Assembly: GCF_008641105.1 (NCBI RefSeq)
Contig: NZ_VTTI01000001.1
Span: forward strand, 393,750 to 457,749
DNA: 64,000 bases
Reading direction: 5' to 3'
Source: Halopseudomonas salina
GTDB taxonomy: Bacteria; Pseudomonadota; Gammaproteobacteria; Pseudomonadales; Pseudomonadaceae
The position numbers and the translations under genes were made by a program. Of the stretch, positions 14,705 to 28,448 are shown piece after piece. Below the pieces are notes generated by a model. That model was given only the letters and a program-made list of their open reading frames with translations, was not told the DNA's origin and did not search any database. Numbering within the stretch: position 1 is the first letter of the stretch; every line of letters starts with the position of its first letter.

Positions 14705-15445
14705 ATGCTGATTGACCCCTGGATCTGGCTCGGCATCTTCATCCTCCTGGCCTACACCGTAGAAGCCATCACCGGCTTCGGCAGCCTGGTCATCGCCCTG
14801 TCCCTCGGCGCCCTGTTTCTCCCCATCCCCGCCATGCTCCCCGTGGTCGTACCCCTCAACGTCCTGATGACCGGCTACCTGGTCTGGCGCAACCGCCGCC
14901 ACATCTACTGGCCGGTCCTATTCAAACTGATCCTGCCACTGATGCTGCTCGGGACTCTGGCCGGCTACGTACTGCGCCCCTGGCTAGGCGCCGACCTGCT
15001 CAAACTCCTTTTCGGCATCCTGGTCCTCTGGTTCGCCACCCGCGAACTCTGGCGCATGGCCCGCGGCATCGTCATCACCCCGCACCCACCGATGCTCAGC
15101 CGCGCACTCACCTTCGGCGCCGGCATCACCCACGGCCTTTTCGCCTCCGGCGGCCCACTGCTGGTTTACGCCATAGGCGGCATCCAGCTCGACAAAAGCC
15201 GCATGCGCGCCACGTTGCTGGTCGTGTGGTTCACCCTGAACAGCTGCCTGACCACGCTGTTTCTGTTCGACGGCAGTTTGATTCCGAGTTTGCCCAGATT
15301 GGTGGTGTATTTGCCGCTGCTGGTGATTGGGGTGTTGCTGGGGGAGTACCTGCATCATCGGTTGAATGAGCAGCGGTTCCGGCAGGTGGTGTATGGGTTA
15401 TTGGCGGTGACGGGGGCGCTGTTGATTTTTAAGGCTGTTGGGTGA
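14705..15445 (+). CDS. Sulfite exporter TauE/SafE (TSUP) family membrane protein
   Basis: A 246-residue polytopic protein with about seven to eight helices. The N-terminal half has VEAITGFGSLVIALSLGALF, and the related half has FGAGITHGLFASGGPLLVYA, the duplicated TSUP motif. TSUP members export or import sulfite, sulfoacetate or other small organosulfur or carboxylic compounds; the substrate is not evident. A 130-base gap with a REP-like palindrome separates it from the upstream SDR gene. The length is normal. Confidence 0.88.
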   Translation: MLIDPWIWLGIFILLAYTVEAITGFGSLVIALSLGALFLPIPAMLPVVVPLNVLMTGYLVWRNRRHIYWPVLFKLILPLMLLGTLAGYVLRPWLGADLLKLLFGILVLWFATRELWRMARGIVITPHPPMLSRALTFGAGITHGLFASGGPLLVYAIGGIQLDKSRMRATLLVVWFTLNSCLTTLFLFDGSLIPSLPRLVVYLPLLVIGVLLGEYLHHRLNEQRFRQVVYGLLAVTGALLIFKAVG

Positions 15446-15781
15446 AGGCCTGGTAGCGGAGATATGCGCTGAACCGTTTGGCCTGGCTGGAAAAAGAAGG
15501 TTGGCACCCCAGGCAAAAAGTATCACTATGCCAGTAACTGCCAAATTGCAGTCCCCCTCCTCGGTGGCATGGATGCCTGAACTACTCTTTTAGACATCCT
15601 GATCCACCCGCTGTTGTTGGCTGGAGTAGGGTGCGGTTTAACGTGCGTTCGCTTGGATGGGAGAAAAGCAAGCATATGAATATGTTCATGAAGCCTCGCT
15701 GCAACAGCAAAAAGCTAGGTCACGTCTTCACAGCGCGTACGGGCGAATTACTGTTATACGTCATAGACGCACAGTAGCCGT
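15446..15781. other. Intergenic stretch marking the left edge of an accessory insert
   Basis: 336 bases without a convincing gene. No tRNA, attachment core or terminator was recognised. Base composition drops towards AT after about 15600. A short CATATGAA...TTCATGAAG sequence at about 15675-15692 weakly resembles the palindromes found after the next genes, and may be a decayed copy. Confidence 0.5.
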
Positions 15782-16663
15782 ATGAATCTTAGCCCAACAT
15801 CTTTGGAAAAACTGCGGGAACTCATTAACGAGGAGACCGAATACCGTTCGGGCCCGAAGCTTGTGCAGTTCTTCAATCGTCTCGGCTTCCACGATTCCTA
15901 TGGCCAAGGCTTCCCTTCCCGATGGGTTTATACCGATCAGCGCTTGGAGGCAATCAACGGAACGCCAGAGCTGGATAAATGCATTCGGGCGGTCTTGAAT
16001 CCGGCCAATTTCATCGGACGATTTCCCGATCTGGATGCCCACATCATCTCATTCAATCAATTTCTTACTTTCGATAAATGGAAGATTATTCGGGAGGGCG
16101 CAGAGATTAATTTTCGAAGGCTCGAGAAGGTCGAGATTGACGAACCCCAGCCGAACGACGACGGTGATACCGAAAGTGAGTTTCTGAAAAAAGAATTTAC
16201 TAACGTGTCCATTGCAAGGCTCGGGCTAGAAGGCGCGGTTAGTGACGTCCTTGAGCAAAGAATTAGAGAAATTGAGAAGTGCTTCTTTGGCAAAGCCTAC
16301 CTGGCTGTGATCCTAATGGCCGGGAGCACACTAGAGGGAACATTGCTCGGCGTGGCGAACCAACACCCCAGATCGTTCAATTTAGCTGCCGCATCACCAA
16401 AAGACCGCGCCGGAAAAGCTAAGCAATTCCAGGACTGGACCCTCAGCGCTTTTATCGACGCCGCCTACGAACTCAGGCTTGTCCAACATGACACCCAAAA
16501 GTTTAGTCACACTCTCCGAGATTTCAGAAACTACATTCATCCTTTTCAGCAAATGAGTACAGGATTTCGCCCGACGGAGCACACAGCGAAATTATGCCTT
16601 CAAGTGTTGAAGGCAGCGGTTTACGAGCTTGGCGAAAACGTTAGTAGAATCAGGGACAAATGA
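15782..16663 (+). CDS. AbiJ-like candidate phage-defence protein (AbiJ-NTD3-like plus HEPN-like C terminus)
   Basis: A 293-residue soluble protein. The N-terminal 80 residues (KLVQFFNRLGFHDSYG, SRWVYTDQRLEAINGTPEL) resemble the AbiJ N-terminal domain 3 module. The C-terminal part ends in a helical domain with LRDFRNYIHPFQQ, where R246 or R249 and H253 fit the R-x(n)-H active-site pattern of HEPN ribonucleases. AbiJ proteins are abortive-infection factors, so an RNase-type antiphage role is inferred. Codon use is less GC-rich than the neighbours. The stop is 2 bases before a palindrome that recurs after the next two genes. Domain assignment is from pattern recognition, not a profile search. 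Confidence 0.65.
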   Translation: MNLSPTSLEKLRELINEETEYRSGPKLVQFFNRLGFHDSYGQGFPSRWVYTDQRLEAINGTPELDKCIRAVLNPANFIGRFPDLDAHIISFNQFLTFDKWKIIREGAEINFRRLEKVEIDEPQPNDDGDTESEFLKKEFTNVSIARLGLEGAVSDVLEQRIREIEKCFFGKAYLAVILMAGSTLEGTLLGVANQHPRSFNLAAASPKDRAGKAKQFQDWTLSAFIDAAYELRLVQHDTQKFSHTLRDFRNYIHPFQQMSTGFRPTEHTAKLCLQVLKAAVYELGENVSRIRDK

Positions 16664-16665
16664 AA

Positions 16666-16700
16666 CCATATGAACATTAAGCGAAAAACTTCATATGACC
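16666..16700 (+). repeat. Cassette-like palindrome copy 1
   Basis: Perfect 8-base arms CATATGAA and TTCATATG flank a centre containing ATTAAGCGAA, followed by GACC. It begins 2 bases after the stop of the AbiJ-like gene. It is the first of four same-orientation copies (others at 17169, 18001 and 18180). Confidence 0.7.
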
Positions 16701-16728
16701 TCGACTTCTCATTTCCAGGCGGGACAAA

Positions 16729-17163
16729 ATGTTGAAGTGGCTACAGTTCAATCAAAGGCTCGCTGCTCTGGAGCGCGAAAAAAGTGCTCTCTTGCTAAAG
16801 CAAAGGGAGCAGATCGAGAGAGCGCGGAAGAACACTATAAGTGAGAATGATATACAGGGGATATATCAGGACCACTACTTTGATCTGACACAGCTAGACT
16901 CAGAAAGAATGTATCTTGTGACAAGAAATCTTATGGCTTGCGCCTCTCGAATGATGATCCCTACTCCCGAAGAAGATCAATGGGAGCGCTGTGGGGTAAC
17001 TGGATATAGATTTTTGACCACGCGCGGAATACATGAACTACGCAAGGCTATCCGGGGTGAGCGAACGGCAAGGCGGGAAGCCGCACTGTCTTGGATAGGG
17101 GCGACTACCGGACTTGTTGGGGCGCTAACAGGTTTAGTAGCGGTACTGTTTTTTGGCAGTTGA
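16729..17163 (+). CDS. Small hypothetical protein with C-terminal membrane helix
   Basis: 144 residues and no recognised family. The first 40 residues are charged and likely a coiled coil (RLAALEREKSALLLKQREQI). The middle is soluble. The last 22 residues form one hydrophobic helix (GATTGLVGALTGLVAVLFF), giving a tail-anchored topology. It lies between the AbiJ-like and CoiA-like genes in the accessory insert and is followed 5 bases after the stop by palindrome copy 2. A membrane-anchored partner or effector in defence is possible but not shown. The ATG has only a weak ribosome-binding site. Confidence 0.6.
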   Translation: MLKWLQFNQRLAALEREKSALLLKQREQIERARKNTISENDIQGIYQDHYFDLTQLDSERMYLVTRNLMACASRMMIPTPEEDQWERCGVTGYRFLTTRGIHELRKAIRGERTARREAALSWIGATTGLVGALTGLVAVLFFGS

Positions 17164-17168
17164 GTTAT

Positions 17169-17213
17169 TTGGGACCAGATGAACATTAATCTGAAGCCTT
17201 CATCCGACCCCAA
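17169..17213 (+). repeat. Cassette-like palindrome copy 2
   Basis: Arms TTGGG...GATGAA and TTCATC...CCCCAA flank an asymmetric centre with ATTAATCTGAA. It lies 5 bases after the stop of the small membrane protein gene. The centre matches copies 1 and 4, giving all copies the same orientation. Confidence 0.75.
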
Positions 17214-17238
17214 GACCTGTTAATGAAAGAGGGCAGAT

Positions 17239-18012
17239 ATGGAAATCGCACTTGTGGAGGGAACTAGAACACGCCCGGCTCCAGGATTAAAGGGATCATG
17301 CCCACGTTGCGGCCAAGCTGCCGTAGCAAAGTGTGGCTCGCAACTAATATGGCATTGGTCACACAAAGGTAGACGACACTGTGACCCCTGGTGGGAAAAC
17401 GAAACAGAATGGCACAGGGCTTGGAAAGCACATTTTCCTGATCGCATGCATGAAGTCGTTCTCTTCGATGAAGCAACCGGGGAAAAGCATATCGCAGACC
17501 TAAAGACAGACAGAGGGATGGTCATAGAAATTCAGCATTCCGCTATGCCAGTAGAGGAGCTGAAAGCACGAGAGGCCTTCTATAAGCACATGATATGGAT
17601 TGTCGATGGTCGCCCTTTCAGGACACAGTTCGAACTGCGCCCAGAGCCTCTGCCTCATCCGGACTCACAGCTTCTTGACGATGTTGTATTTTTCGAGGGG
17701 CTAGGCACGGTGTTCTGGCGGCGTTCTGAAAATGAAGCGAACCCCGCAATGGTCCTCATGCACAAAGCAGAGGAGATCGGGAGCCAAATTCAAGAGCATT
17801 ACCAAGGGCATCACTTCTTCAAATGGAAACGACCAAGAGAGGTTTGGCTTCAAGCTACAGCGCCCGTCCTCATAGATTTTGGGGGTCATGAAGTTTATAG
17901 AATCTGCGAATATCAGAATCCAAGCAGGCATTGTGTACAACTCATTCAGAAGCGAGCTCTCATCGAGAAAAACGGCGGTTCTTACAACGAATCGTCAATC
18001 GGGGTCAAATAA
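17239..18012 (+). CDS. CoiA-like nuclease-domain protein
   Basis: A 257-residue protein of the competence-protein-CoiA-like family. A zinc-finger-like part at the N terminus has CPRCG at 21-25 and HWSH at 39-42. It is followed by the ETEWHRAWKAHFP segment and a PD-(D/E)xK-type nuclease core, D87 in HIADLK and ExQ (E97, Q99) in MVIEIQHS. These motifs are characteristic of CoiA-like proteins, which often occur outside competence operons in accessory DNA. An intact acidic core suggests an active DNase. The stop codon lies inside palindrome copy 3. The function here is unknown; a link to competence is not supported by neighbours. Confidence 0.8.
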   Translation: MEIALVEGTRTRPAPGLKGSCPRCGQAAVAKCGSQLIWHWSHKGRRHCDPWWENETEWHRAWKAHFPDRMHEVVLFDEATGEKHIADLKTDRGMVIEIQHSAMPVEELKAREAFYKHMIWIVDGRPFRTQFELRPEPLPHPDSQLLDDVVFFEGLGTVFWRRSENEANPAMVLMHKAEEIGSQIQEHYQGHHFFKWKRPREVWLQATAPVLIDFGGHEVYRICEYQNPSRHCVQLIQKRALIEKNGGSYNESSIGVK

Positions 18013-18040
18013 AAATTGAACGAAAAATTCGTCTGACCCC
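18001..18040 (+). repeat. Cassette-like palindrome copy 3
   Basis: GGGGTCAAAT and GTCTGACCCC form the outer arms around an AT-rich centre (AAATTGAACGAAAAATT). It contains the stop codon of the CoiA-like gene, unlike copies 1 and 2, which follow their stops. Confidence 0.75.
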
Positions 18041-18179
18041 ATTTTTACTCGCCCGATGCAAACCGGTTGATGTCGCAGCCGAGCACACACTCAGGGTCAG
18101 GTCTCGCCTTTTGCCTAAAGCTAGAAGCAAGCGAGAGAGCATATGGTCTATAGAGGAATCCGGCCCTTACTGCGTGTAA
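18041..18179. other. Short noncoding spacer between palindrome copies 3 and 4
   Basis: No convincing gene. It contains GGGTCAGGTCTCGCC and a TCTCGC...GCGAGA inverted pair at about 18104-18138, which looks like one arm of a different GGGTCAGG-type repeat. It may be the scar of a lost cassette or repeat element. Confidence 0.4.
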
Positions 18180-18240
18180 TTGGGGTTAGTTCAAATGAAA
18201 ATTAATCAGAACCTTTCATCTGACCCTGAATTTGCCCCAA
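18180..18240 (+). repeat. Cassette-like palindrome copy 4 (long form)
   Basis: Outer arms TTGGGG and CCCCAA enclose inner arms ATGAAA and TTTCAT, with the shared centre ATTAATCAGAA and TCTGACCC. It ends 6 bases from the convergent transglutaminase stop and marks the right edge of the accessory insert. Confidence 0.75.
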
Positions 18241-18246
18241 GTCTAA

Positions 18247-19140
18247 TCACCAGATTCGCTGAAATTCTGACTGCGGCGAGCCTGCAGTTGATAACGCATT
18301 GTCCTGATGCACAGGCAGATCGAGCCCCTGCTGCGAATCTTCGATCGCTTCTATAGTAATCACCGGTAGCGCGGGGTTTGTTGCACCGAATACCGTGGCG
18401 AAGGACACATCGGCCGCGTCCCTGCCGGTGCCGAGGCGCAGAAGCCCCATGACGGGAGACACGCCGCTGGGGTCAAACAGATACCAGCGACCACTGAGAA
18501 ACACCTCGACGTAGGCATGAAAATCCGCCGGCCGGAAAGCAGGGTTTGCGCCGAACTCGATGCCGGAAACAAAGCGTGCCGGCATGTTCAGGGCGCGGCA
18601 GGTGGCAATCATCAGATGGGCGAAGTCGCGGCATACACCCACATGGTCGGTCAGTGTATCCACGGCAGAGGTACTGCTACCCGAGCTGCCCGAGGTATAT
18701 CGGGTTCTCTGGTATACCCAGTCACGGATGGCCAGCACGCGGTTGTAACCGGGCGGCATTTGACCAAATTCATGGTTGGCCAGAGCCTGAAAGCGGTCTG
18801 ATTCACAATAGCGACTGGGATAGATGTAGTTGAAGAGATCCATCGGCAAGTCAGCAACCGCCATCTCTTCCAGGCTCCAGGGGTCCGCCACCGTGTGGTA
18901 GATCTCTACCAGTCCCTCGTAGCGCACCACTAGCTCGCCGCTGTTGGCGCGTAACTTCAACCACCGCGTGCCGTCGTCGTTCTGCATGAACAGTTGCTGT
19001 TGCACTGGCTGGTTGATGCTCAGGGATTCGCTGAGCACCTGTTGGCTGGACGTGAGAGCCGGATGAATGTTGAACAGGAAGTCACAGGTCGCATCCAGCA
19101 CGCCATAGGTGAGTTCGATGGAAAATTTCAGCCGCACCAT
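18247..19140 (-). CDS. Transglutaminase-like cysteine protease family protein
   Basis: A 297-residue protein from MVRLKFSIELTYGV, preceded by AAAGGA. A longer open frame upstream lacks family similarity. The N-terminal beta-rich domain is followed by the transglutaminase core: C170 in DHVGVCRDFAHLM, H208 in DFHAYVEVF and D223 in WYLFDPSG, the complete catalytic triad. Bacterial members of this subfamily are thought to act as proteases or amidases and often sit with ATP-grasp/alpha-E genes, which are absent here. It is transcribed alone, away from the GFA gene. Confidence 0.88.
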   Translation of the reverse strand: MVRLKFSIELTYGVLDATCDFLFNIHPALTSSQQVLSESLSINQPVQQQLFMQNDDGTRWLKLRANSGELVVRYEGLVEIYHTVADPWSLEEMAVADLPMDLFNYIYPSRYCESDRFQALANHEFGQMPPGYNRVLAIRDWVYQRTRYTSGSSGSSTSAVDTLTDHVGVCRDFAHLMIATCRALNMPARFVSGIEFGANPAFRPADFHAYVEVFLSGRWYLFDPSGVSPVMGLLRLGTGRDAADVSFATVFGATNPALPVITIEAIEDSQQGLDLPVHQDNALSTAGSPQSEFQRIW

Positions 19141-19446
19141 GGCAGTGTATCCTTTGATGAACATGAAAAACCGGCAGGGCCGAGGCTCGGCCACGATGGC
19201 AGGACGAGCCGCTGACCCTGCTTGTAGGCGAGAATGATAGCGTTGGACTGCGTGAGGTGATTGCGTCCCGAACGCCAGCCTGCCCATCTTGACAGAGAAA
19301 CCGTAGGAAACTAAGTGGAGGCAGATCAACCGTCATATATTTTCGCTTGATCCGGTCTACTTACCATCTTGTATAACGTTAACAATTTGCTGCCCTACTG
19401 ACTTAACGGCAAACAAGGCGCTAGGCCTCACCACAAGGACTCAGGT
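19141..19446. other. Divergent intergenic region, transglutaminase / GFA gene
   Basis: 306 bases with no gene I can support. An AT-rich part around 19331-19400 probably holds the promoters. A weak stem TTTGC...GCAAA lies at about 19386-19414. No operator or RNA family was recognised. Confidence 0.5.
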
Positions 19447-19860
19447 ATGACGGTACCAATAACTGGCGGTTGCGCATGCGGAGTGATTCGCTATACGTGC
19501 AAGGAGCAGCCTATCGCAATGCTGAACTGTCACTGCCAGGACTGTCAGCGCTCAAGCGGGGCTCCTTTCGCATCAGGCATCGTTGTCGCCGTTTCGGCTA
19601 CCGACATTACAGGTGTGCCCAAGACGCATACCGTACGCGGCAATACCGGTGGAGAAACGACTCGTAGCTTTTGCGCTGAGTGCGGGACTCCACTATTCAC
19701 CCGGGGGGAAGCGGTGTCAGAGTTCATGTCCATCCGTTTCTCAACTCTGGATGACGCCTCCTGGTTCAAGCCCGAGCTGGATATTTGGACTTCACGCTCA
19801 CAGCCTTGGGTTTGCCTCAACCGAGAAATTCCGCAATTCCCTGGGTCGCCTTCTGTATAA
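19447..19860 (+). CDS. GFA-family (glutathione-dependent formaldehyde-activating-like) zinc protein
   Basis: A 137-residue protein with the full GFA cysteine set: CxC at C9 and C11, CHCQDC at C28/C30/C33, and FCAECGTPLF near residue 75. These bind two zinc ions in the Mss4-like fold. The length is typical. Most family members have no proven formaldehyde activity, so a glutathione-conjugate lyase-like or unknown role should be assumed. Its 3' end abuts the remnant of a TSUP exporter gene read in another frame. Confidence 0.9.
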   Translation: MTVPITGGCACGVIRYTCKEQPIAMLNCHCQDCQRSSGAPFASGIVVAVSATDITGVPKTHTVRGNTGGETTRSFCAECGTPLFTRGEAVSEFMSIRFSTLDDASWFKPELDIWTSRSQPWVCLNREIPQFPGSPSV

Positions 19861-19861
19861 A

Positions 19862-20164
19862 CCCAGCCGTGCCATCCATCTGGGCAAAAAGATCAGCGGC
19901 AAAAAATTCAAGTATGCGGTGATTCCGGGTATTGGATTCGCCGACGGTATGTTCGGGCCCGGCACCGGTTCGTTCTTCACCCTGGCCAGTGTTCTATGCC
20001 GAAGAGCGAAGCTGGTGGCTGCCACCGCTGTGGCCAGGCCCCTGAATTTCGCGACCAACCTGTCATCACTGATCGTCTTTGCCGCCTATGGCAACGTCGT
20101 GTGGCATGCCGACCTAGTCCAGCGGCTGGATCGCTTGGTAGAGTCGTGGCCTTGCGGTGATTGA
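19862..20164 (+). pseudogene. Remnant of a TSUP/YfcA-type membrane transporter gene
   Basis: The frame downstream of the GFA stop encodes FKYAVIPGIGFADGMFGPGT, SFFTLAS, and LNFATNLSSLIVFAAYGNVVWHADLV, clearly the second-half motif of YfcA-like TSUP proteins (FGPGTGSF...NF..N...F). The first half is missing, no start codon is associated, and the similarity fades after WHADLV before a stop at 20162. It is therefore a 5'- and 3'-truncated relic. It is not a copy of the intact TSUP gene at 14705. Confidence 0.7.
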
Positions 20165-20182
20165 CCCCCTCGCTGGATGCTC

Positions 20183-20395
20183 TCAATAGCAGGAGTTGGG
20201 GGTGCTCATCGGATTGATGTCTCCGGCGACCTCATCGGGGTCTATCCCATGGGTTATCAATACCTCGCGTACGAAATTGATCTGCTCAAGAATCCTGCTG
20301 GCATCGTCGCCATATTCGAACCGGGTTACTTCTACTGGCTTGGGCATGAATGTGAACGCTGTTTTCAGGGCTTGCAGGGTGTCGGTATCAGACAT
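20183..20395 (-). CDS. Small conserved-looking hypothetical protein
   Basis: 70 residues from MSDTDTLQALKTAFTF, chosen because AGGAGA lies eight bases upstream of this ATG. The longer open frame starts in unrelated sequence. It is acidic and probably helical, with no membrane segment or known motif. It is divergent from the ankyrin lipoprotein gene. No function can be suggested. Confidence 0.6.
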   Translation of the reverse strand: MSDTDTLQALKTAFTFMPKPVEVTRFEYGDDASRILEQINFVREVLITHGIDPDEVAGDINPMSTPNSCY

Positions 20396-20579
20396 GGTAT
20401 TTCTCCTGGGCAATGGGTGCAGATCGATGGTATCGCGCTGATCCTTGATGGGTCGACCCGCTTTAACGCGGGTTTCCTGTTGGCGGTGACACAGCCTTGC
20501 TGATAACCAGAACCGCCCCGTAAGATGCCCAGGCATTTACCCGACCGCCCCGGGCGGCACAGGAAAAGGATGACCACCG

Positions 20580-21470
20580 ATGTACCCACCTAACCGAACA
20601 ATAGCTCGCCTGCCATACGTGCTGCTTATGGCATTGCTTGCGCTGCTGACCAACGGCTGTGAGGCGCCATCCGATAATCGTGATTCGGCCCTGGCGGAGC
20701 TGGCTCAGCGCGGGATCAGCATCGATATGGACGGCTTGAAAGCGTCGACGAGAACCCGCAGCTACGATGGTGCCTTTCTGTTTGATGAGATCGGTTTTTT
20801 CGACGATATCAGTGATGCGGATCTGAAGGAGACCTTGCTCCATGCTGCCAAGTCTGACAACTTTGGGCTCGCCCGTGTTCTGGAACGCCTCGACAGCCGC
20901 GTTCAGTTCGACGCAAGTGAATTGCAGGAGAGTCTTGATATAGCTGTCCGGCGTGGCTCTGGTGAGCTAACTGCGGCACTACTCAGACATGGCGCCCGGC
21001 CAGGCCCTGAGACCCTGTTTCAGGCAGCCTATGCTGATGATTACCAGCAGGCGGAGATGCTACTGCAGCACGACACTGACTTTACCGGCGAGCCCAACAA
21101 TGAAGCTGTGAGGATGGCGGCGCGCTTGGGCAATCTGCAAACACTCAAGGCGTTTGTTGATAGCGGTAAGGCCCCTGACGAGCAGGTCTACCAGGCACTT
21201 CGCTTCGGGGCGCTGACCGAGCAAGCCGCAGTGGTCCGATATCTGGTGGAGTGGGGTGTTCCGGTGGATCACCCCGACAGCGATGGCTGCACTGCCTTGC
21301 ATTACCTGGCGCAGGACGGTTTGGTCGAGGATGTACGTTATCTTGTCGACCAGGGTGCGGCGGTCAATCAGACCTGTCGGGGTAAGGAAACGCCACTGAA
21401 GTGGGCCCACTACGGTAAGAATCAGCCTGTGATTGATTACCTGCTCAGCGTTGGCGGTACCCAACTCTGA
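20580..21470 (+). CDS. Ankyrin-repeat lipoprotein
   Basis: A 296-residue protein. The N terminus has a signal peptide with the lipobox LLTNGC (cysteine near residue 27), so it should be lipid-anchored on the periplasmic side. The rest consists of ankyrin-type repeats, clearest in the C-terminal third (DGCTALHYLAQDGLVEDVRY and ETPLKWAHYGKNQPVIDYLL). Periplasmic ankyrin proteins often bind and neutralise partner proteins, including as immunity proteins. A PAAR gene lies about 400 bases away on the other strand, but no matching toxin is seen, so such a role is speculation. Confidence 0.82.
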   Translation: MYPPNRTIARLPYVLLMALLALLTNGCEAPSDNRDSALAELAQRGISIDMDGLKASTRTRSYDGAFLFDEIGFFDDISDADLKETLLHAAKSDNFGLARVLERLDSRVQFDASELQESLDIAVRRGSGELTAALLRHGARPGPETLFQAAYADDYQQAEMLLQHDTDFTGEPNNEAVRMAARLGNLQTLKAFVDSGKAPDEQVYQALRFGALTEQAAVVRYLVEWGVPVDHPDSDGCTALHYLAQDGLVEDVRYLVDQGAAVNQTCRGKETPLKWAHYGKNQPVIDYLLSVGGTQL

Positions 21471-21530
21471 ACACTTTCGCGTCGGGCACGTGCCTGGCAC
21501 CCCTTCCCACCAACTAAAGTCGAGCAACCC

Positions 21531-21854
21531 ATGCCTACCGATCCGCTGAAAACCCTCTCCGATCTGGTCAGCGAAGCCCATGCGCAGATTCAAGCGGCGC
21601 ATGAGCACATCAACCCGGTGGTGGAAGTGCGCCAGGGCATGCGCAATGCCGGTATCCCCGCCGACGTGCTCACCCTCGACTGCCTGCGCACCCAACGCCG
21701 CATTACCCTGATCCTGCATGACCAACAGCCGGGCGTGGTGCTTTACCAGTTCGTGACGCGGGCAGAGGAAGTCGGCGGTGACTTCAAGCAGATCCCGCTG
21801 GCGGATATGAGCAGCGAGACTCTGGTTGGGTGGATGGAAGATTATTTCGGCTGA
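21531..21854 (+). CDS. Conserved hypothetical cytoplasmic protein
   Basis: 107 residues, no signal peptide or membrane helix. It is well behaved as a gene: an ATG start, codon use like its neighbours, and an amphipathic N-terminal helix (LSDLVSEAHAQIQAAHEHI) followed by an alpha-beta region ending in LVGWMEDYFG. It sits 60 bases after the ankyrin lipoprotein on the same strand and converges with the PAAR gene. No family was recognised. Confidence 0.7.
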   Translation: MPTDPLKTLSDLVSEAHAQIQAAHEHINPVVEVRQGMRNAGIPADVLTLDCLRTQRRITLILHDQQPGVVLYQFVTRAEEVGGDFKQIPLADMSSETLVGWMEDYFG

Positions 21855-21865
21855 GTTGAGCCGAA
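21846..21865. terminator. Hairpin between convergent genes
   Basis: A perfect 7-bp stem TTCGGCT / AGCCGAA with a 6-base loop overlaps the stop of the upstream gene and lies between two convergent genes. The T-run is poor, so only a weak, perhaps bidirectional, terminator is proposed. Confidence 0.35.
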
Positions 21866-21874
21866 TGCAGCCCC

Positions 21875-22153
21875 TTAGCCACCGACCTTGATGGTGCCCT
21901 GTGGCAGGAGGGTGTTGGCCCCCGGCGGACAACCACAAGCCACATAATCACCCGCTCTGGCGGCTGGACCTGCTGGTAGAAAGGCGGTGCGGGGGCCGAC
22001 TGCGACAATGGGGCCAATGCCTTTCTTGCAGGCCGGGCAGGTGGCTTTGTGGCCGACCGATGTGGCGACCAGCCCATCAAACATCACTCCGCCGTTGCCT
22101 TCGATAACGGCGCCGCCGGTTGAGGTTTTCGAGCCTATCCCTATGCTATGCAT
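21875..22153 (-). CDS. PAAR-domain protein (type VI secretion spike tip)
   Basis: 92 residues from the ATG of MHSIGIGSKTSTGG (a TTG three codons upstream is possible but badly spaced from GGGAG). It consists of a single PAAR domain: repeated glycine-rich turns, VATSVGHKATCPAC and GDYVACGCPPGANTLL. PAAR proteins sharpen the VgrG spike and carry or recruit effectors. There is no fused effector domain here and no VgrG or other secretion gene nearby, so it is an orphan tip that would work with a system encoded elsewhere. Confidence 0.85.
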   Translation of the reverse strand: MHSIGIGSKTSTGGAVIEGNGGVMFDGLVATSVGHKATCPACKKGIGPIVAVGPRTAFLPAGPAARAGDYVACGCPPGANTLLPQGTIKVGG

Positions 22154-22299
22154 GTGTGCCAACGCTCCCTGTACGTTTCAGTCCGTCCGGTATCAGGCGA
22201 GGATCATAGCGAATTGGCGATATCGGGGCTGATACCTGCGTCACGTTTCTAGAAACGCTGAGGTGTGGCGGCAGCTATTCGGCTCACCGGTTCCAGTAG

Positions 22300-23913
22300 C
22301 TACACCCCTGCCGACCGAAAACGCTCTGTCAGCTGCCGCATCGACAACGACTCCTGGCGCAGGGATTCGCTGACTTCCCGGGAGTTTTTCACGCTGCCCA
22401 TCAGCACCTGGGAGCTTTCGCGCAGCATGGCGGAGCGCTGCTCGATAAGATCCAGGGCATCACGCTGAAGGGAGACTGAATGCGATACCTGCTGGCTGCT
22501 GGATTCCATTTCAACGAACTGGTCCCCCAGGCGCGTCAGATGGGTTTTCAGTTGGTCCAGATTGCTGCGGTTGCTGGCACCGGCTGCGCGCATTTCGTCC
22601 AGTAGCGAGTCTACGCTGCTGACACCTTCCACCAGATCGAGGACCCATTCGCGAATTTCCCGGGTGGAATCAGCGGTGCGCTGGGATAGAGTCCGCACCT
22701 CATCGGCTACCACTGCAAAGCCGCGGCCATGCTCGCCAGCGCGCGCGGCTTCAATCGCTGCATTCAGCGCCAGCAGGTTGGTCTGGTTGGCGATGGCAGC
22801 AATAACGCCAATCACCTGCTCGATCTTGTTGGTCGATTCACTCAGTGCGTGGATCGAGCCGGACACACGTCCAATCACATCGTTCGCATTGTTCGCCGCC
22901 GCCTCGCTGCTTTGCAGGCCCTGTTGTACCTGCTCGTTAGCCTGCACCGCTTCGCGGATGGTCGCCGCTGATCCTTCGGTTGCGGACTCTATCTCCGAGG
23001 CCTGACCGGCAATCGCGCCCATGGAAAGGCTGACTTTTTCGATCTGTTCGCGGGTCATTTCCGAGGCGGCCTGCAGGGCTTCCGCTTCCTCGTCCAGGCT
23101 GGCAGAACGCTGATTAAGGCCTGCGGCTGATTGGCGGATGTCACCGACGAACTGGTCAAAGCGACCGACCAGACCATTCAGCGCGCGCGCCACACCGGCG
23201 ACCTCATCCTGGCCGGTTACGGCCGGTGTCAGGCTCAGGTCGGATGTTGCATCCATCTGTTTGATATCGCTTTCGATATTCTGCAGGCGCACGATAACCG
23301 TGCGCCTGAGCCAGAGGGTCATGAGGATGATTGCCACCAGAAATACCGCAGAACCAATAATCAGAAACGTCTGTTGATTGTCCAGGTAGGCGAGCAACTG
23401 CGAGGAATCCTGCTGAATCATGCTACGGCTGTTGCGCTTTCGCTCCTCGATCGCCGCGAGCATCGGGTCCAGCGCTGGAAACAGGTCAAAGTCCACGACC
23501 TGGCCAACCCGGTAATAACTTTTTTCGCCGATACCGGGTTCAAGCTTGCCAAGCAGGTCCAGCACGCTCTGAAACTCTTCGCGGTGAGCCATGGCCCAGT
23601 CACTCAATTGCGCGCTCTCTTCGATTACCTGCCAGCGCTGCGGCAGGGACACCACCAATGCTTCGAAAGTGGGCACAATCTCATCCCAGAGCAGCAGTTG
23701 CGCCTTAATCTTGTAGGTCAGGTCCTGCAACTGTCGGTGATCCTGCTCCAGGTCCTCGAGCATCCAGGACTCCTGCAAGCCAGCGGTGATCAACCGTTTG
23801 GAAGCGGTTTCCGTCTCTTTGATGATCAGCAGGGACATGATCGCCAGCGCTGCAAGGGCGCTTATGGACAGAAAGGAGAAGAACAGGATGCGGGTACGGA
23901 CGGTGGACAGCAT
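22300..23913 (-). CDS. Methyl-accepting chemotaxis protein
   Basis: A 537-residue transmembrane chemoreceptor starting [14 protein letters not shown], with GAGG five bases upstream. Helix 1 spans about residues 9-31. A periplasmic sensor domain of about 150 residues, mostly helical, precedes helix 2 near residue 185 ([20 protein letters not shown]). A HAMP domain and a long cytoplasmic coiled coil follow, with the signalling hairpin [19 protein letters not shown] and [15 protein letters not shown]. It follows modABC by 79 bases on the same strand and may be co-transcribed. The ligand is unknown. Confidence 0.93.
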
Positions 23914-23992
23914 GACTACCTCACAGCAGGGTCGGCATCCGGAGGCTATTCCCATGATGTGACACTGCCATTACAACAGACTTATTCTCGCT

Positions 23993-25066
23993 TCAGGTCA
24001 GCAACCCTACCGACTTGATAAGTGCGTAGACCTTCTGGCCTGCTGCCAGATCCAGCTGCCTGACCGCCCTTGGGGTCACTTCCGCCAACAGCAGTTGACC
24101 TTCGGTGGTGCGACAGGCGACCAGGGTCCGAAAGTTGTGCGGCGGATAAATACACTCGATGCTCACCTGCAGGTGATTCTGAATACTGATCTGCCGGGGC
24201 TCGACCAGGGACAAGCTGACATCTTTTGCCAGTACGCGCAGCCTTACGTCATGCGCATCGGTGTTCAGGCCCGACCCCGGCACCCAGAGTCTGGCGCCGA
24301 CTGGGCCGAAAGGTCGCATGCCATCTTCCTCGGCATCCCCCAGGCTACCGACCAGGATGGACGCCGCCCCGGCATCGGCAAACAAGGGCGAATCGGGGCG
24401 ACTGAGCGCCTCCTGCAGGGTCTCGATACGTTCAATCTGCCCGTCGTGCATGAATATGATTCGATCCGCCAGGCGTTCTACTTCTTCCGGGGCGTGACTG
24501 ACCATGATGATCGGTACCTCCGCCTGTGCGGCCATGCGCGAAAGAAAGGGCATGATCTCGCTTTTGGTGCGGGTATCGAGCGCCGCCATCGGCTCATCGA
24601 GCAGTAACAGTTGCGGGCTGATCAGCAGGGCGCGGCCCAAAGAGATACGCTGGCGCTGCCCCCCGGATAGCTGATTGATACGACGATCAAGAAGCTCCTC
24701 TATATCCAGCATGGCCGTTACTTCAGGCAGATGCAGGCGGCGCAGGGCGGCTGGCGTTCGTTTGTAGCCATAGAGCAGGTTATCGCGTACCGACAGATGC
24801 GGCAGCAGGCTGGGTTCCTGGAATACCAGGCCAATGCGGCGCTGGTGCAGCGGCACGAACTGCCGGCTCTGCTGCCAGGCCTGATCGCCAAAGCACACCT
24901 GCGCATCGGGCACACGCTCAAGTCCGGCAATGATCCTCAGCAGGGTCGTCTTGCCACATCCGGAGCGGCCGAACAATGCCGTAACGCCCTGCAAGGGCAA
25001 CTCGCAATCCACCTTGAGCTCAAAACCACTGGCGTGGCGCAGGCGGGCCTGAATCTGCAGAGTCAT
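23993..25066 (-). CDS. modC: Molybdate ABC transporter ATP-binding protein ModC
   Basis: A 357-residue ATPase. Walker A is GRSGCGKTTLL near residue 33, the signature LSGGQRQRISLGRALL near residue 135 and Walker B LLLLDEPMAAL near residue 155, followed by the switch histidine in MVSHAPEEV. The C-terminal 80 residues form the molybdate-binding TOBE/MOP-type regulatory domain that separates ModC from other importers. The start overlaps modB by 4 bases. It powers molybdate import through ModB. Confidence 0.95.
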   Translation of the reverse strand: MTLQIQARLRHASGFELKVDCELPLQGVTALFGRSGCGKTTLLRIIAGLERVPDAQVCFGDQAWQQSRQFVPLHQRRIGLVFQEPSLLPHLSVRDNLLYGYKRTPAALRRLHLPEVTAMLDIEELLDRRINQLSGGQRQRISLGRALLISPQLLLLDEPMAALDTRTKSEIMPFLSRMAAQAEVPIIMVSHAPEEVERLADRIIFMHDGQIERIETLQEALSRPDSPLFADAGAASILVGSLGDAEEDGMRPFGPVGARLWVPGSGLNTDAHDVRLRVLAKDVSLSLVEPRQISIQNHLQVSIECIYPPHNFRTLVACRTTEGQLLLAEVTPRAVRQLDLAAGQKVYALIKSVGLLT

Positions 25067-25749
25067 ACCTTGGCCACCGCAAAGCGCCGGTTGATGCTGT
25101 AGACCACAAACAGGGTGACGAAAGCGAATACCAGCAGCATCAGCGACAGACCGTGGGCGGCGGGGTAGTTCATGGCTTCGGCGTGGTCATAGATCAGCAC
25201 CGACAGCACCTTGGTTTCGCCGGGAATGCTGCCTCCGAGCATGAGTATCACGCCGAACTCACCGAGGGTGTGGGCGAAGGTCAGGGTCGCTGCCACCACG
25301 AAGCCGCCACGGGTCATGGGCAGGATAACCGTGAGAAAGCGATCCACCATGCCCGCGCCCAGGCTGCTGGCCACTTCAACCGGTCGGCGGCCCAGATGAC
25401 TGAAGGCTTCGGTCAAGGGCTGCACCGCGAAGGGCATGGAATAGATTACCGAGGCGATCAGAATACCCTCAAAGGTAAAAGCCAGGTGGTGTAAACCCAG
25501 GTTTTCCAGCGTCTGCCCGACTACACCACGCGGGCCCAGCACGATAAGCAGATAAAACCCCAGAACGGTGGGCGGCAGCACCAGCGGCAGCGCAACAATG
25601 GCCTGCACCACCACCCGGCCGGTTGAACGCTTCTGTGCCAACCACCAGGCCAGTGGCGTAGCCAATATCAGCAGAATGATCGTGGTATACAGGCACAGCC
25701 TGGCTGTAACCTCGATGGCCTGCCACTCCGCTGGCCCCAATGAGAACAT
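25063..25749 (-). CDS. modB: Molybdate ABC transporter permease ModB
   Basis: A 228-residue inner-membrane permease with about five to six helices. The coupling motif EAFSHLGRRPVEVASSLGAG near residue 115 is the EAA loop that docks on ModC. FAHTLGEFGVILMLGGSIPG is highly characteristic of ModB. It sits between modA (26 bases upstream) and modC (overlap), in the normal modABC order. Confidence 0.95.
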   Translation of the reverse strand: MFSLGPAEWQAIEVTARLCLYTTIILLILATPLAWWLAQKRSTGRVVVQAIVALPLVLPPTVLGFYLLIVLGPRGVVGQTLENLGLHHLAFTFEGILIASVIYSMPFAVQPLTEAFSHLGRRPVEVASSLGAGMVDRFLTVILPMTRGGFVVAATLTFAHTLGEFGVILMLGGSIPGETKVLSVLIYDHAEAMNYPAAHGLSLMLLVFAFVTLFVVYSINRRFAVAKV

Positions 25750-25775
25750 GCGTCTTCCTCGCTTTAATTGCTAAC

Positions 25776-26555
25776 TCACTCGGGTATCACAAAACCGTAA
25801 TGGAGCATGCTGGCATGGGCCTGATCAGTGGCCATGAAGTCGGCAAACGCCCACACTTCCGGCTTTTTAGCACCACGCCGGGTGACTACATAGCCCTGGG
25901 TCAGCGGCTGGTGCAGGGTGTCGTCGATAAGGTAATAGCCGTACTTTTCCAGCTCTGGAAACCTGGCCAGCGACAATGCAATGATGCCGACTTCGGCGGC
26001 GCCGGACTGGGTCATCTGCGCGGCATGGGCAATATTCTCGGCAAATACCAGCTTGCCCTGCACCGCCTCCCAAATACCTGCTGATTGCATCGCTTCCCGG
26101 GCGCGCAAACCGTAGGGAGCGTGGGCCGGCTGTGCGATGGCAATCCGCTTGATGGCATCAGAGGTAAGGTCTGCCAGGGTCAGACCGGCGGCATCCAGCG
26201 TATTGCTCCAGAGCACGATACGGCCGATTGCATAAACAGCCGGTTCCGTCGCCGCCATCCCCTTTTCCTCAAGCTTATGCGCAAAGGCAATGTCGGCAGA
26301 AAAAAACATATCGTAGGGTGCGCCGTTGATGATCTGCGTGGTCATCTTGCCTGATGAGCCATAGATCACCTCGATACGGGCATCGGCATGGGCCTGGTGG
26401 TACAGCTCGATAATGTCGTCCAGCGCGTAACGCAGATCGGAGGCGGCAGCGATGCGCACAACTTCACTGGCCTGTACTGACGGAATCAACAGCAAAAACA
26501 GTAGGGCGCCGAGTAGCCGGAGGGGTGGGGCGTAAAAACGATCGAACAACGGCAT
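25776..26555 (-). CDS. modA: Molybdate-binding periplasmic protein ModA
   Basis: A 259-residue binding protein with a cleavable signal peptide (LRLLGALLFLLLIPSVQA then SEVVRIAAAS). The mature N terminus AAASDLRYALDDI and the SGKMTTQIINGAPYDMFFSAD motif are typical of ModA and provide oxyanion-binding serines. The start at 26555 is preceded by GGAGAG; the longer open frame is unrelated upstream sequence. It is first gene of modABC. I saw no convincing ModE site or molybdenum-cofactor riboswitch in the 147 bases upstream. Confidence 0.95.
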   Translation of the reverse strand: MPLFDRFYAPPLRLLGALLFLLLIPSVQASEVVRIAAASDLRYALDDIIELYHQAHADARIEVIYGSSGKMTTQIINGAPYDMFFSADIAFAHKLEEKGMAATEPAVYAIGRIVLWSNTLDAAGLTLADLTSDAIKRIAIAQPAHAPYGLRAREAMQSAGIWEAVQGKLVFAENIAHAAQMTQSGAAEVGIIALSLARFPELEKYGYYLIDDTLHQPLTQGYVVTRRGAKKPEVWAFADFMATDQAHASMLHYGFVIPE

Positions 26556-26702
26556 TGTCTCTCCAGCCTGATTGCCAGCCTCTTCACCAGACAATGATCC
26601 TGGATTGTGGTGCCTGACGGTTGACTGGAGACTATACCAGCCAGGCTGCAGGATACCGATAGGCGGCAATCTCGCGCAGGCGCTGCTGATTTACCGCGCA
26701 GC

Positions 26703-28448
26703 TCAGGCCTGCTCTGGCTCGGCGACAGCACGCTTCTGGTTACCCAGCGTATTGAACGCGATATGCGTACTGGGAAACACTTCACCCACCTGTTCATTGA
26801 TCCAGTCCGTCTCGCCCAGGTGGTCCATTACCGGGCCTTTGACCTCGGCCAGATGGAGATGAATGTCTCTCTCGGCCAGACCCTCGGTGAGTTCGCTGAG
26901 CATGTCCAACCCGGTACTGTCGATGTGGTTCACCGCGGACAGAATAAGCAGCACTTCGCGGGTATCGGGATAATCACGCAGGGCCCGATAAAGAGCGTGC
27001 TCGATCGCCTTGGTGTTGGCAAAGAAGATGTTTTCATCAATCCGCAGGGCCAGCAGATGGGGCTCTATTTCCACCAGGTGGCGCTTGGTATTACGAAAGT
27101 CCTGGGTGCCCGGTACACGCCCGACGACCGCAATGTGCGGCCGGCTACCCCGCCACAGCTGCGCGGCAATCGACAGACAGATTCCCAGTGCGATGCCGCC
27201 CTCGATTCCCAGCAACAGCACCCCGGCGGCCGTACTGAACAGGGTCAGGCCCTCGGCACGGTCGTAGCGCCAGGCCCGTCGCAGACTGGCCACATCAATC
27301 AACGGGGTGACGGCCACAAGAATGACAACCGCCAGTATCACCAGGGGCAGATGCGCAAACAAAGGGGCAATCGTCAGCAGAATAAGGCCAATTATCGTCA
27401 TGGCAATGACGCCTGCCAACGGCGTGTTGGCCCCTGCCTCGATATTCACCACAGAACGGGAAAAGCCACCCGCGACAGCAAAGCCGCCGGTCAGGCCCGC
27501 ACCCAGGTTGGCGGCGCCCAGTGCCAGCAACTCCCGATCAGCATCAATGCTCTGGCGCTTGCGCCGGGCCAGGGACTGGGCGATTGCCACACTCTCGACA
27601 AAGGTGACCAGGCTGATCAGCGCTGCGGGCAACAGCAGTGCTCGTATATCTGAAAACTCCGGCGTAGCCCAGAAAAAGGCAGGCAGCCCCGCAGGCAGAA
27701 AGCCCACTACCGGCACGCCCCGCGCGGCCAGATCACCGCTCACGGTAACCAGCAGCGCGGCAATCACCAGGACGATGGGGGCCAGACGAGCAAGCAGGGT
27801 CGCGGCTACCGGTGGCAGGCCCAGACCGCGCAGGTGCCTGGCCAGCATGCTGCGGGCATACATCAGCCACGCCAGGGAAACGAGGCCAATCCCGAGCACC
27901 AGGGAGTTCGCCAGGGTCCAGCTATCGAGCAGTTGCTGCGGACCGGACGGCAGGGCGGGCACACCCAGCAGGTGCGGCAACTGGCTGATGGCAATAAGAA
28001 TAGCCGCGCCACTGATAAACCCGCTGATCACCGGATGGCTGAGAAAGTTGGCCAGAAAGCCCAGACGTAACAAACCCACTGCAAACAACATGACACCCGA
28101 CAGCAGCGCCAGCCATATCGCCATTTGCAGATAGGCACCGCTGCCTATGGACGCCAGGGGCGCCAGCAGGGTCGCGGTCATCAGCCCGGTTACCGCCACA
28201 GGGCCCACCGAGAGACTCATGCTGCTGCCAAACAGCGCATAGGCCAGAAGCGGCAGCAGGCTGGCATAGAGGCCAATCTGGACGGGCAGACCAGCGAGCA
28301 TCGCGTAGGCCATGCTCTGGGGAATGATCATCACGCTGACCACCAGGCCAGCGGTCAGATCGCCACTGAGCCAGGCCAGACGGTAGTGGCGTAACCAGCC
28401 CAGCAGGCCGGAATCACCCGGTGGCTGAAGCCGCGGATTATCGCTCAT
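26703..28448 (-). CDS. SulP-family anion transporter with STAS domain
   Basis: A 581-residue transporter with the SLC26/SulP core of 10-14 helices. Motifs include MIIPQSMAYAMLAGLPVQIGL near residue 43, PLLAYALFGSSMSLSVGPVA near residue 70 and GFAVAGGFSRSVVNIEAGA near residue 310. The last 120 residues are a cytoplasmic STAS domain (LRIDENIFFANTKAIE, LILSAVNHIDSTGLDMLSEL). SulP proteins carry sulfate, bicarbonate or related anions. Its start overlaps the upstream YeeE-type gene by 4 bases, placing it in the persulfide-regulator operon and making a sulfur oxyanion the most likely substrate. Confidence 0.93.
   Translation of the reverse strand: MSDNPRLQPPGDSGLLGWLRHYRLAWLSGDLTAGLVVSVMIIPQSMAYAMLAGLPVQIGLYASLLPLLAYALFGSSMSLSVGPVAVTGLMTATLLAPLASIGSGAYLQMAIWLALLSGVMLFAVGLLRLGFLANFLSHPVISGFISGAAILIAISQLPHLLGVPALPSGPQQLLDSWTLANSLVLGIGLVSLAWLMYARSMLARHLRGLGLPPVAATLLARLAPIVLVIAALLVTVSGDLAARGVPVVGFLPAGLPAFFWATPEFSDIRALLLPAALISLVTFVESVAIAQSLARRKRQSIDADRELLALGAANLGAGLTGGFAVAGGFSRSVVNIEAGANTPLAGVIAMTIIGLILLTIAPLFAHLPLVILAVVILVAVTPLIDVASLRRAWRYDRAEGLTLFSTAAGVLLLGIEGGIALGICLSIAAQLWRGSRPHIAVVGRVPGTQDFRNTKRHLVEIEPHLLALRIDENIFFANTKAIEHALYRALRDYPDTREVLLILSAVNHIDSTGLDMLSELTEGLAERDIHLHLAEVKGPVMDHLGETDWINEQVGEVFPSTHIAFNTLGNQKRAVAEPEQA

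Follow-up and report, generated by a model that had tools for sequence, protein, structure and literature searches.

Palindromes at the gene ends of a Halopseudomonas array belong to TIRYT-type repeats and probably replaced integron attC sites

What closes the single genes of a small gene array in Halopseudomonas salina? In the stretch of 64,000 nucleotides analysed here (assembly GCF_008641105.1, contig NZ_VTTI01000001.1, positions 393,750 to 457,749; hereafter the window), three unrelated genes downstream of tauE, encoding an AbiJ/HEPN-like protein, a tail-anchored membrane protein and a CoiA-like nuclease, each have an imperfect palindrome over or shortly behind their stop codon. The original prediction had offered two explanations, either a new cassette-type recombination site that collects defence genes or repeated insertion of repetitive extragenic palindromic (REP) elements. 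Our results leave an acting new recombination site unsupported. The arrangement is real, and the palindromes are TIRYT-type repeats, a kind that goes with a Y1/HUH single-strand transposase, with an unexpected home in integron arrays. In the window array they probably replaced the attC sites. The full reading is a cassette array without integrase, into which TIRYT mini-elements have settled and in which they took the place of the attC sites; to it we assign a probability of roughly 0.58.

The four palindromes, P1 to P4, form one family, point in the same direction and have arms of 13 nt around a loop of 14-15 nt. As described in the original prediction, they stand behind or over stop codons: P1 overlaps the stop of the AbiJ-like gene (16661-16663), P2 starts 7 nt past that of the membrane protein gene, and P3 encloses that of the CoiA-like gene (18010-18012). 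No credible gene precedes P4, whose end is separated by 19 nt from the 3′ terminus of a transglutaminase gene on the opposite strand. This arrangement is far beyond chance. A core pattern with up to three mismatches, which misses P3, has three matches in the 64 kb versus 0.19 expected, with a maximum of two in 100 shuffles. Requiring 10 or more Watson-Crick pairs out of 13 and a loop that starts with ATTRA leaves three hairpins window-wide, all in the array (P4 fails this cut), and 1000 shuffles of 15640-18240 in three-base blocks gave a mean of 0.002 and a maximum of 1. DNA folding z-scores for P1 to P4 are -3.0, -3.0, -3.3 and -1.0 on the bottom strand and -2.9, -1.8, -3.2 and 0.2 on the top strand. 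No GTTRRRY core is present on either strand of P1-P4 with a few flanking bases, which confirms the earlier statement. The palindromes were rejected as integron attC sites on the missing core pair RYYYAAC ... GTTRRRY and on the attC model R3 (see below), which has no hit in the window.

Relatives were reached through an Escherichia coli genome and the conserved protein Fmt, with G164 as the closest of 274 sampled genomes (genomes and fetched loci carry our labels G and L); they appear to be members of the Pseudomonas family and near relatives of Halopseudomonas. A covariance model built from the four window sites only (R1) matched in 18 of the 198 genomes of G164's family at E<=1, several of them weakly, and showed clusters in G448, G452, G414 and G365. 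The palindrome has a cleaner form in these relatives, AAATTGGGGTCAGATGAACATTAATCnGAAACCTTCATCTGACCCCAATTT, and 24 aligned sites give a consensus that is an almost perfect inverted repeat of 17 bp, with 87.3% of single pairs being standard. A second model (R2), for whose training the window sites were joined by 20 sites that R1 had first detected in relatives, matched at E<=0.1 in 19 of 28 clade genomes and reached at least 50 bits at 21 places in eight genomes, many of these places having trained it. Such strong copies number 1-8 per genome. The genomes are an even sample of larger groups, and 31 candidates per listed genome (R1) or 150 (later scans) were scored; since this was only part of the first-look candidates, all site numbers are lower bounds. 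The sites tabulated with their genes (26) and flanks (30) were chosen by score and by eye. Further away, inspection by reading of the viral CoiA-like relatives L002-L008 found no such palindrome within 200 nt past their stops, an exact-pattern scan had no match in viral contigs, and the P2 region had no blastn match among plasmids. The sole exact-pattern match in genome contigs lies in Flexithrix and was judged to be chance; this collection probably lacks G448, whose sites, as read, the pattern ought to have matched.

The same sequence forms both ends of a Y1 (HUH) element in two relatives, so the palindrome belongs to a terminal-inverted-repeat family of the TIRYT kind. In L107 (G414) a Y1 frame of 240 aa lies between TTGGGGTCAGATGAACATTAAC and TAATGCTCATCTGACCCCGATTT; its protein scores 51.8 bits for PF01797 (cut-off 23) and 67.7 bits for NF047646, under the cut-off of 80 for that model. 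L054 (G365) contains a full-length element whose Y1 frame is broken by one stop, together with several truncated tandem Y1 copies that start with the identical left end. Against the palindrome consensus, the left element ends agree at 24 of 26 and 25 of 26 positions and the right ends at 17 of 19 in both loci. Published TIRYT elements have GGGGWSAS as the motif of their terminal inverted repeats and give rise to short repeat families, according to the parts of the two reports available to us (PMC3733652, PMC6006769). The stretch GGGGTCAG in the relatives' consensus fits this motif; in the window it is intact on the right arm of P3 (as CTGACCCC) and decayed in P1, P2 and P4. By this likeness, the palindrome is best described as a minimal TIRYT-type element. 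The truncated tandem Y1 copies and the gene fragments next to hairpins in L045 and L048 suggest past Y1 activity. Of the REP explanation, the transposon origin was borne out by the Y1-element ends and GGGGWSAS, whereas a REP of the GTAG kind was not, given the low copy number and a GTAG/GGAG tag at the hairpin foot that is not conserved in the 24 aligned sites. L059 lies close to another Y1 gene. A Y1-like motif after another hairpin in L045 had no tblastn match to three Y1 probes and was set aside as a motif only.

The locus itself can be compared with relatives. In blastn alignments, L049 (G333) and L061 (G444) follow the window up to 15634/15640 and again from 19853/19880, and between these breaks the gene content differs among all three. 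What lies downstream of tauE is a variable hotspot. The promoter-like element TTGGCA-N17-CACTAT was found at 14 distinct places in the fetched loci, which were mostly chosen around tauE, the window included. A conserved leader ends in YTAATCACTGTT in L061, L122, L057, L124, L126 and L127, and the sequences diverge immediately beyond it. We regard YTAATCACTGTT as attI because it lies at most about 250 bp from an integron integrase gene in six of 12 integrase loci (L140, L141, L143, L145, L146, L147); in the other six it was not found. Cassettes with canonical attC sites follow the attI ending in L126 and L127, and in L056 and L062 only the promoter-like element is present. In the window the corresponding ending is decayed (ATTACTGTT at 15747-15755) and was matched to the L061 and L122 leaders through synteny. 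Of the predicted cassette-type site, the cassette character of the locus found support (variable hotspot, promoter-like element, attC sites in relatives), and a palindrome acting as cassette site did not.

A link of the palindromes to integrons is given by their distance to attC sites. The attC model R3 was built from 16 hand-picked sites, eight of them from four palindrome loci, and gave 105 hits at E<=1 over 71 loci. Hits of at least 22 bits were obtained in seven of 19 palindrome sources (L045, L046, L048, L050, L052, L053, L057), in three of 20 tauE loci (L122, L126, L127), in 10 of 12 integrase loci and in none of 20 Y1 loci (Fisher p 0.003 versus the palindrome sources; the Y1 loci are shorter, 87 kb in total). 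The 19 sources are the window and L045-L062, with L059 (one hit of 18.1 bits) counted as none; two of these sources, L056 and L062, represent one hotspot. The Y1 controls are 20 of 50 fetched Y1 loci. Over seven whole genomes, R3 found 54 attC sites at E<=1e-3, whose 2-kb zone covers 0.42% of the sequence. Nine of the 20 strong palindromes in these genomes, in six of 12 loci, lie within 2 kb of an attC site (P 5e-12 versus the whole-genome share). When the four loci that supplied training attC sites were dropped, three of eight loci remained within this distance (P 4e-6), and within 5 kb the count is 12 of 20 sites, still in six of 12 loci. The 20 sites are all places of at least 50 bits in the seven genomes, whose sizes were partly rounded; G296, with one place of 53.4 bits, was left out since R3 was not run on it. 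Among the six loci near attC, attI is clear in L046 (47.0 bits), L053 (42.7 bits) and L057 (23.0 bits), within background as a look-alike in L045 and L048, and missing in L050. The array head of L046 combines a clear attI (17777) with an integron integrase fragment (17932-18266; 74 aa, 80% to the IntI of L141). Two earlier home-made attC finders were dropped for R3 as unspecific (1.58 versus 1.41 hits per 10 kb in shuffled sequence), and a degenerate attC read by eye near 19378-19425 of the window, which has no R3 hit, is not claimed.

The strongest competitor, which we consider possible and clearly less probable than the replacement of attC sites, is that ordinary terminal-inverted-repeat or REP-type repeats lie in unconstrained accessory DNA, with arrays as permissive ground and a place behind stops being usual. 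Indeed, REP-type repeats are predominantly located downstream of coding regions, as stated in the part of PMC3733652 available to us, and the search of related genomes suggested in the original prediction produced copies in both orientations, copies adjoining ordinary genes (L051, L059) and copies around Y1 genes outside arrays (L054). What speaks against such a background of repeats is the strong enrichment near attC, set beside the relatives' Y1-gene loci without any attC. In addition, a few copies per genome are unlikely to pile up in arrays by chance. The constant direction, formerly taken as a sign of a recognised site, was lost in the larger sample: relative to the array, 15 copies run the same way and five run opposite (20 sites in seven loci, window copies included, with weak attI calls for the window, L045 and L048; p 0.04, the sites not being independent).

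How could attC sites have been lost? Read in the sequences, palindromes lie across the R′ end of an attC site in L057, 2-3 nt after the R′ end in L046, within small gene-less cassettes in L050 and L048, and over a gene stop in L052, L062, P1 and P3. Protein ends give a further hint. Of the best 119 of 2315 AbiJ-family homologues, 93 have T, I, A or V at the C-terminus (71 of them T), versus 34 of the best 120 of 971 CoiA-like homologues, a list that includes one fragment of the window's own protein (Fisher p 4e-15, a value overstated by the relatedness of the homologues to each other). Since RYY-TAA-C corresponds to a stop codon inside the R″ core of attC, the AbiJ-like family is probably often carried as a cassette. 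Its members are mostly 290-292 aa long with ends such as GKIST or GRVRT; the window copy ends in SRIRDK, with its stop at the palindrome edge. That only the last codons are changed fits a replacement of the R″ end by the palindrome, as far as the protein sequences show. A C-terminal T, I, A or V is possibly a simple marker for integron-cassette proteins.

Rearrangement traces are seen in relatives. L056 (G414) and L062 (G440) share a palindrome, homology resumes at most 3 nt from its left edge, and the preceding genes are unrelated. In genomes G448 and G452, hairpins adjoin sequence copied from the 3′ end of a dnaK-like gene nearby (L045, 6879-7178, 295 bp, 99%; L048, 11010-11130, 122 bp, 89%). 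These traces would fit deletions from an element edge and transfer of flanking DNA. From these data we infer the following course. The window would hold, downstream of tauE, an integron platform lacking its integrase, with a Pc-like promoter, a decayed attI formed by the leader, and acquired cassette genes with defence-like products. The palindromes would be minimal non-autonomous TIRYT copies, left end fused to right end, which may colonise cassette arrays by means of the Y1 enzyme. Such a mini-element would insert at or near attC, at the 3′ end of a cassette, and a later deletion from its edge would remove the attC and leave the gene stop at or in the palindrome.

That the palindrome works in place of attC, so that a gene with its palindrome moves through the integrase or through a Y1 enzyme acting on the folded single strand, is in our opinion unlikely. 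The alternation of genes and palindromes with unrelated cargo in the window and in L056 would be expected in that case, and so would the different genes in front of one shared palindrome at the same hotspot, with the breakpoint at the palindrome edge (L056/L062). However, this breakpoint lies left of the palindrome, and for an exchange at attC the break would be expected to the right, at R′. Mismatched inner arm pairs of the window copies would form 10 G.T wobbles on the bottom strand, one on the top strand and two on neither, which corresponds to the strand logic of attC; as a general rule this was rejected, since the inner 13 pairs of the other 20 sites show no bias (8 versus 8). Besides the absent GTTRRRY core, no unit was found both with and without its palindrome. 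Integrases do not track the palindromes either: among the eight genomes with strong sites, four (G452, G459, G333, G365) have no match at E<=1e-30 in the whole genome, one has a fragment and one a copy with stops, and an intact gene, as judged from coverage and stops, is present in two of eight versus 10 of 20 others (p 0.40). The same holds for the Y1 gene, found in 29 of 31 genomes, and the tracking of a recombinase proposed in the original prediction was hence not observed. Similarly doubtful is a hybrid system for stocking defence genes, a fusion of single-strand transposition with integron shuffling in which TIRYT hairpins close the cassettes of integrase-poor lineages and serve for their exchange. 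Least probable is a selection of the hairpins as RNA elements at gene 3′ ends for mRNA stability or for control of transcription or translation, with the transposon origin being incidental: their position at or in stop codons and the negative folding z-scores of P1-P3 on both strands agree with it, and it is opposed by copies read between attC sites without an apparent preceding gene (L050, L046), by the five of 20 copies in opposite direction and by P4, which follows no gene.

Several observations weigh against the replacement of attC sites by TIRYT mini-elements. With no attC hit in the window, the replacement is deduced and not seen, and among the genomes compared there is no strain pair with an attC behind a gene in one and a palindrome behind the same gene in the other. 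The window attI-like ending scores 13.3 bits, the second best value in the 64 kb and within background (up to 16.2 bits in loci without this site), so that this call comes from synteny. Six protein probes (tblastn, E<=1e-3) revealed neither a Y1 nor an integrase relative in the window, which leaves no candidate mover at hand there, and G333 has three strong sites and no detected Y1 gene. Six of the 12 loci have no attC within 5 kb (list at E<=1e-3); L051, L055 and L059 have neither a 22-bit attC hit nor an attI score above background. As the palindromes lie over R″, over R′, just after R′ or in mini-cassettes, there is no single target rule, and arrays may simply tolerate insertions.

Table 1. 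Features of the window array and its surroundings (window coordinates).
Feature	Position	Strand	Basis
Conserved promoter-like TTGGCA-N17-CACTAT (Pc-like), upstream of variable gene arrays	15501..15529	+	Consensus, sequence only
Conserved leader; its end (15713-15755, ...GAATTACTGTT / ATACGTC) is a decayed attI-like site	15530..15755	+	Synteny
Variable interval of the tauE hotspot	15640..19853	.	Break points of blastn collinearity
AbiJ/HEPN-like gene, 293 aa	15782..16663	+	Protein homologues (count in the text)
Palindrome P1	16662..16702	+	Sequence reading, alignment, hairpin statistics
Gene of tail-anchored membrane protein, 144 aa, near-orphan	16729..17163	+	Tail anchor from sequence reading
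Palindrome P2	17171..17211	+	Sequence reading, core pattern, alignment, hairpin statistics
CoiA-like nuclease gene, 257 aa, stop codon within P3	17239..18012	+	CoiA_N match
Palindrome P3	18001..18040	+	Sequence reading, alignment, hairpin statistics
Relic of second GGGTCAG repeat type (GGGTCAGGTCTCGCCTTTTGCC)	18094..18115	+	Sequence reading; similar stretch in L057 after a cassette gene
Palindrome P4	18187..18227	+	Sequence reading, core pattern, alignment

The three array genes (Table 1) are co-directional single genes of foreign composition, with a G+C content of 0.49-0.50 versus 0.59 window-wide, and the promoter upstream of them is a consensus match. The AbiJ/HEPN-like protein has 2315 homologues at E<=1e-10, one of which is named HEPN domain-containing by its source; it has no Pfam match and only a partial PADLOC match (Stk2, residues 19-74). 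For the membrane protein, two proteins at E<=0.001 were obtained among 5.8 billion, itself included, which leaves one relative, and no PADLOC match. The CoiA-like protein matches CoiA_N with E 4.7e-5, under the curated cut-off, and PADLOC weakly; 971 proteins are found at E<=1e-40. In genomes, the AbiJ-like gene was detected in none of 198 of the family (E<=1e-10) and none of 369 of the class (E<=1e-50), both searches without a positive control, and the CoiA-like gene in three of 198 family genomes (E<=1e-10) by its N-terminal half only. Three IntI proteins as probes (tblastn, E<=1e-3) had no match beside the attI-like site or elsewhere in the window, nor was an integrase match obtained in the other 14 palindrome sources probed. 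Across the window, Rfam gave no match at gathering thresholds.

The cargo of other palindrome loci was also compared. PADLOC gave a match at E<=1e-3 for six of ten neighbouring genes: in four cases it is clear or moderate (AlbA_2/PDC-S50, AAA_13/PDC-S06, GmrSD/NsnA and KAP NTPase/PDC-S20), in the other two weak. The cargo also includes a PIN and a T5orf172 domain, and one cargo gene of L048 has no match in either library.

Some further observations concern the surroundings. The whole stretch from tauE to a sulphate permease gene (window 15445-26740) is a broad insertion hotspot of about 0.75 kb in L132, 2.7 kb in L128 and about 11 kb in the window. Part of a second TauE/TSUP-like gene (19583-20164) lies at the right border of the tauE hotspot; this fragment is longer in L049 (2164-2937). 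A PAAR-type gene region (21914-22244) has 85% identity over 333 bp to a region of L045 adjoining palindromes, where it is followed by a small gene and a palindrome. In L122 (2412-4437), the attI-like ending is followed by a tyrosine recombinase (partial TIGR02249, below cut-off) and an apparent IS91-type transposase. The second GGGTCAG repeat type (GGTCTTGC...TTTTGCC) occurs at array gene ends in the window (18094-18115), in L057 (3410-3460) and in L045 (about 8050), and in L061 (5242-5300, 6080-6110) cassette-like genes are followed or preceded by a palindrome whose arms differ (GAGTAA/TTCACTC) and by a GGGGTCAGAGTCATTGATT repeat. Several terminal-inverted-repeat families may use the same array niche.

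How genes gain and lose attC sites is, to our knowledge, an open question in integron biology. TIRYT hairpins in attC positions would offer a concrete route for the loss of attC, i.e. for the freezing of an array, and possibly for an exchange of sites. Array searches based on attC only would miss such arrays, and the window would not be called an integron.

Integron cassette arrays without an integrase are known as clusters of attC sites lacking integron integrases (CALIN). The window resembles them in its orphan array of single genes, the attC sites in relatives, the promoter-like element in front and the defence-like cargo; it differs in having no detectable attC and palindromes in those positions. 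Mobile elements that reside in attC sites are known from IS1111-attC insertion sequences and group IIC-attC introns, which, inserted at a fixed point, have half of an attC on either side. They use other enzymes, and such flanking halves are not seen here. With the REP doublets termed REPINs and the GTAG REPs, which go with REP-associated tyrosine transposases (RAYTs), the palindromes share the nature of hairpin-forming non-autonomous repeats attributed to a Y1 transposase. In contrast to these, they lack a conserved GTAG/GGAG tag, have 1-8 strong copies per genome and not hundreds, and their element ends are half-hairpins.

In the literature searched (titles and abstract starts), we found no link between integrons and RAYT or TIRYT repeats. 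Within the available parts of the two TIRYT reports, the term integron is absent from PMC6006769 and the sole match to attC in PMC3733652 is a stretch of sequence; the part of PMC8266576 available to us likens the binding of hairpins by TnpA-REP to attC folding by analogy. The closest known system is TIRYT, or TIRtron (PMC3733652; subclass 2.1 of PMC6006769), for which the same parts describe GGGGWSAS-type repeats flanking a Y1/HUH gene and short copies that occur singly, as dimers and in clusters, as they do here. The difference lies in their place, since the short copies described here concentrate in cassette arrays.

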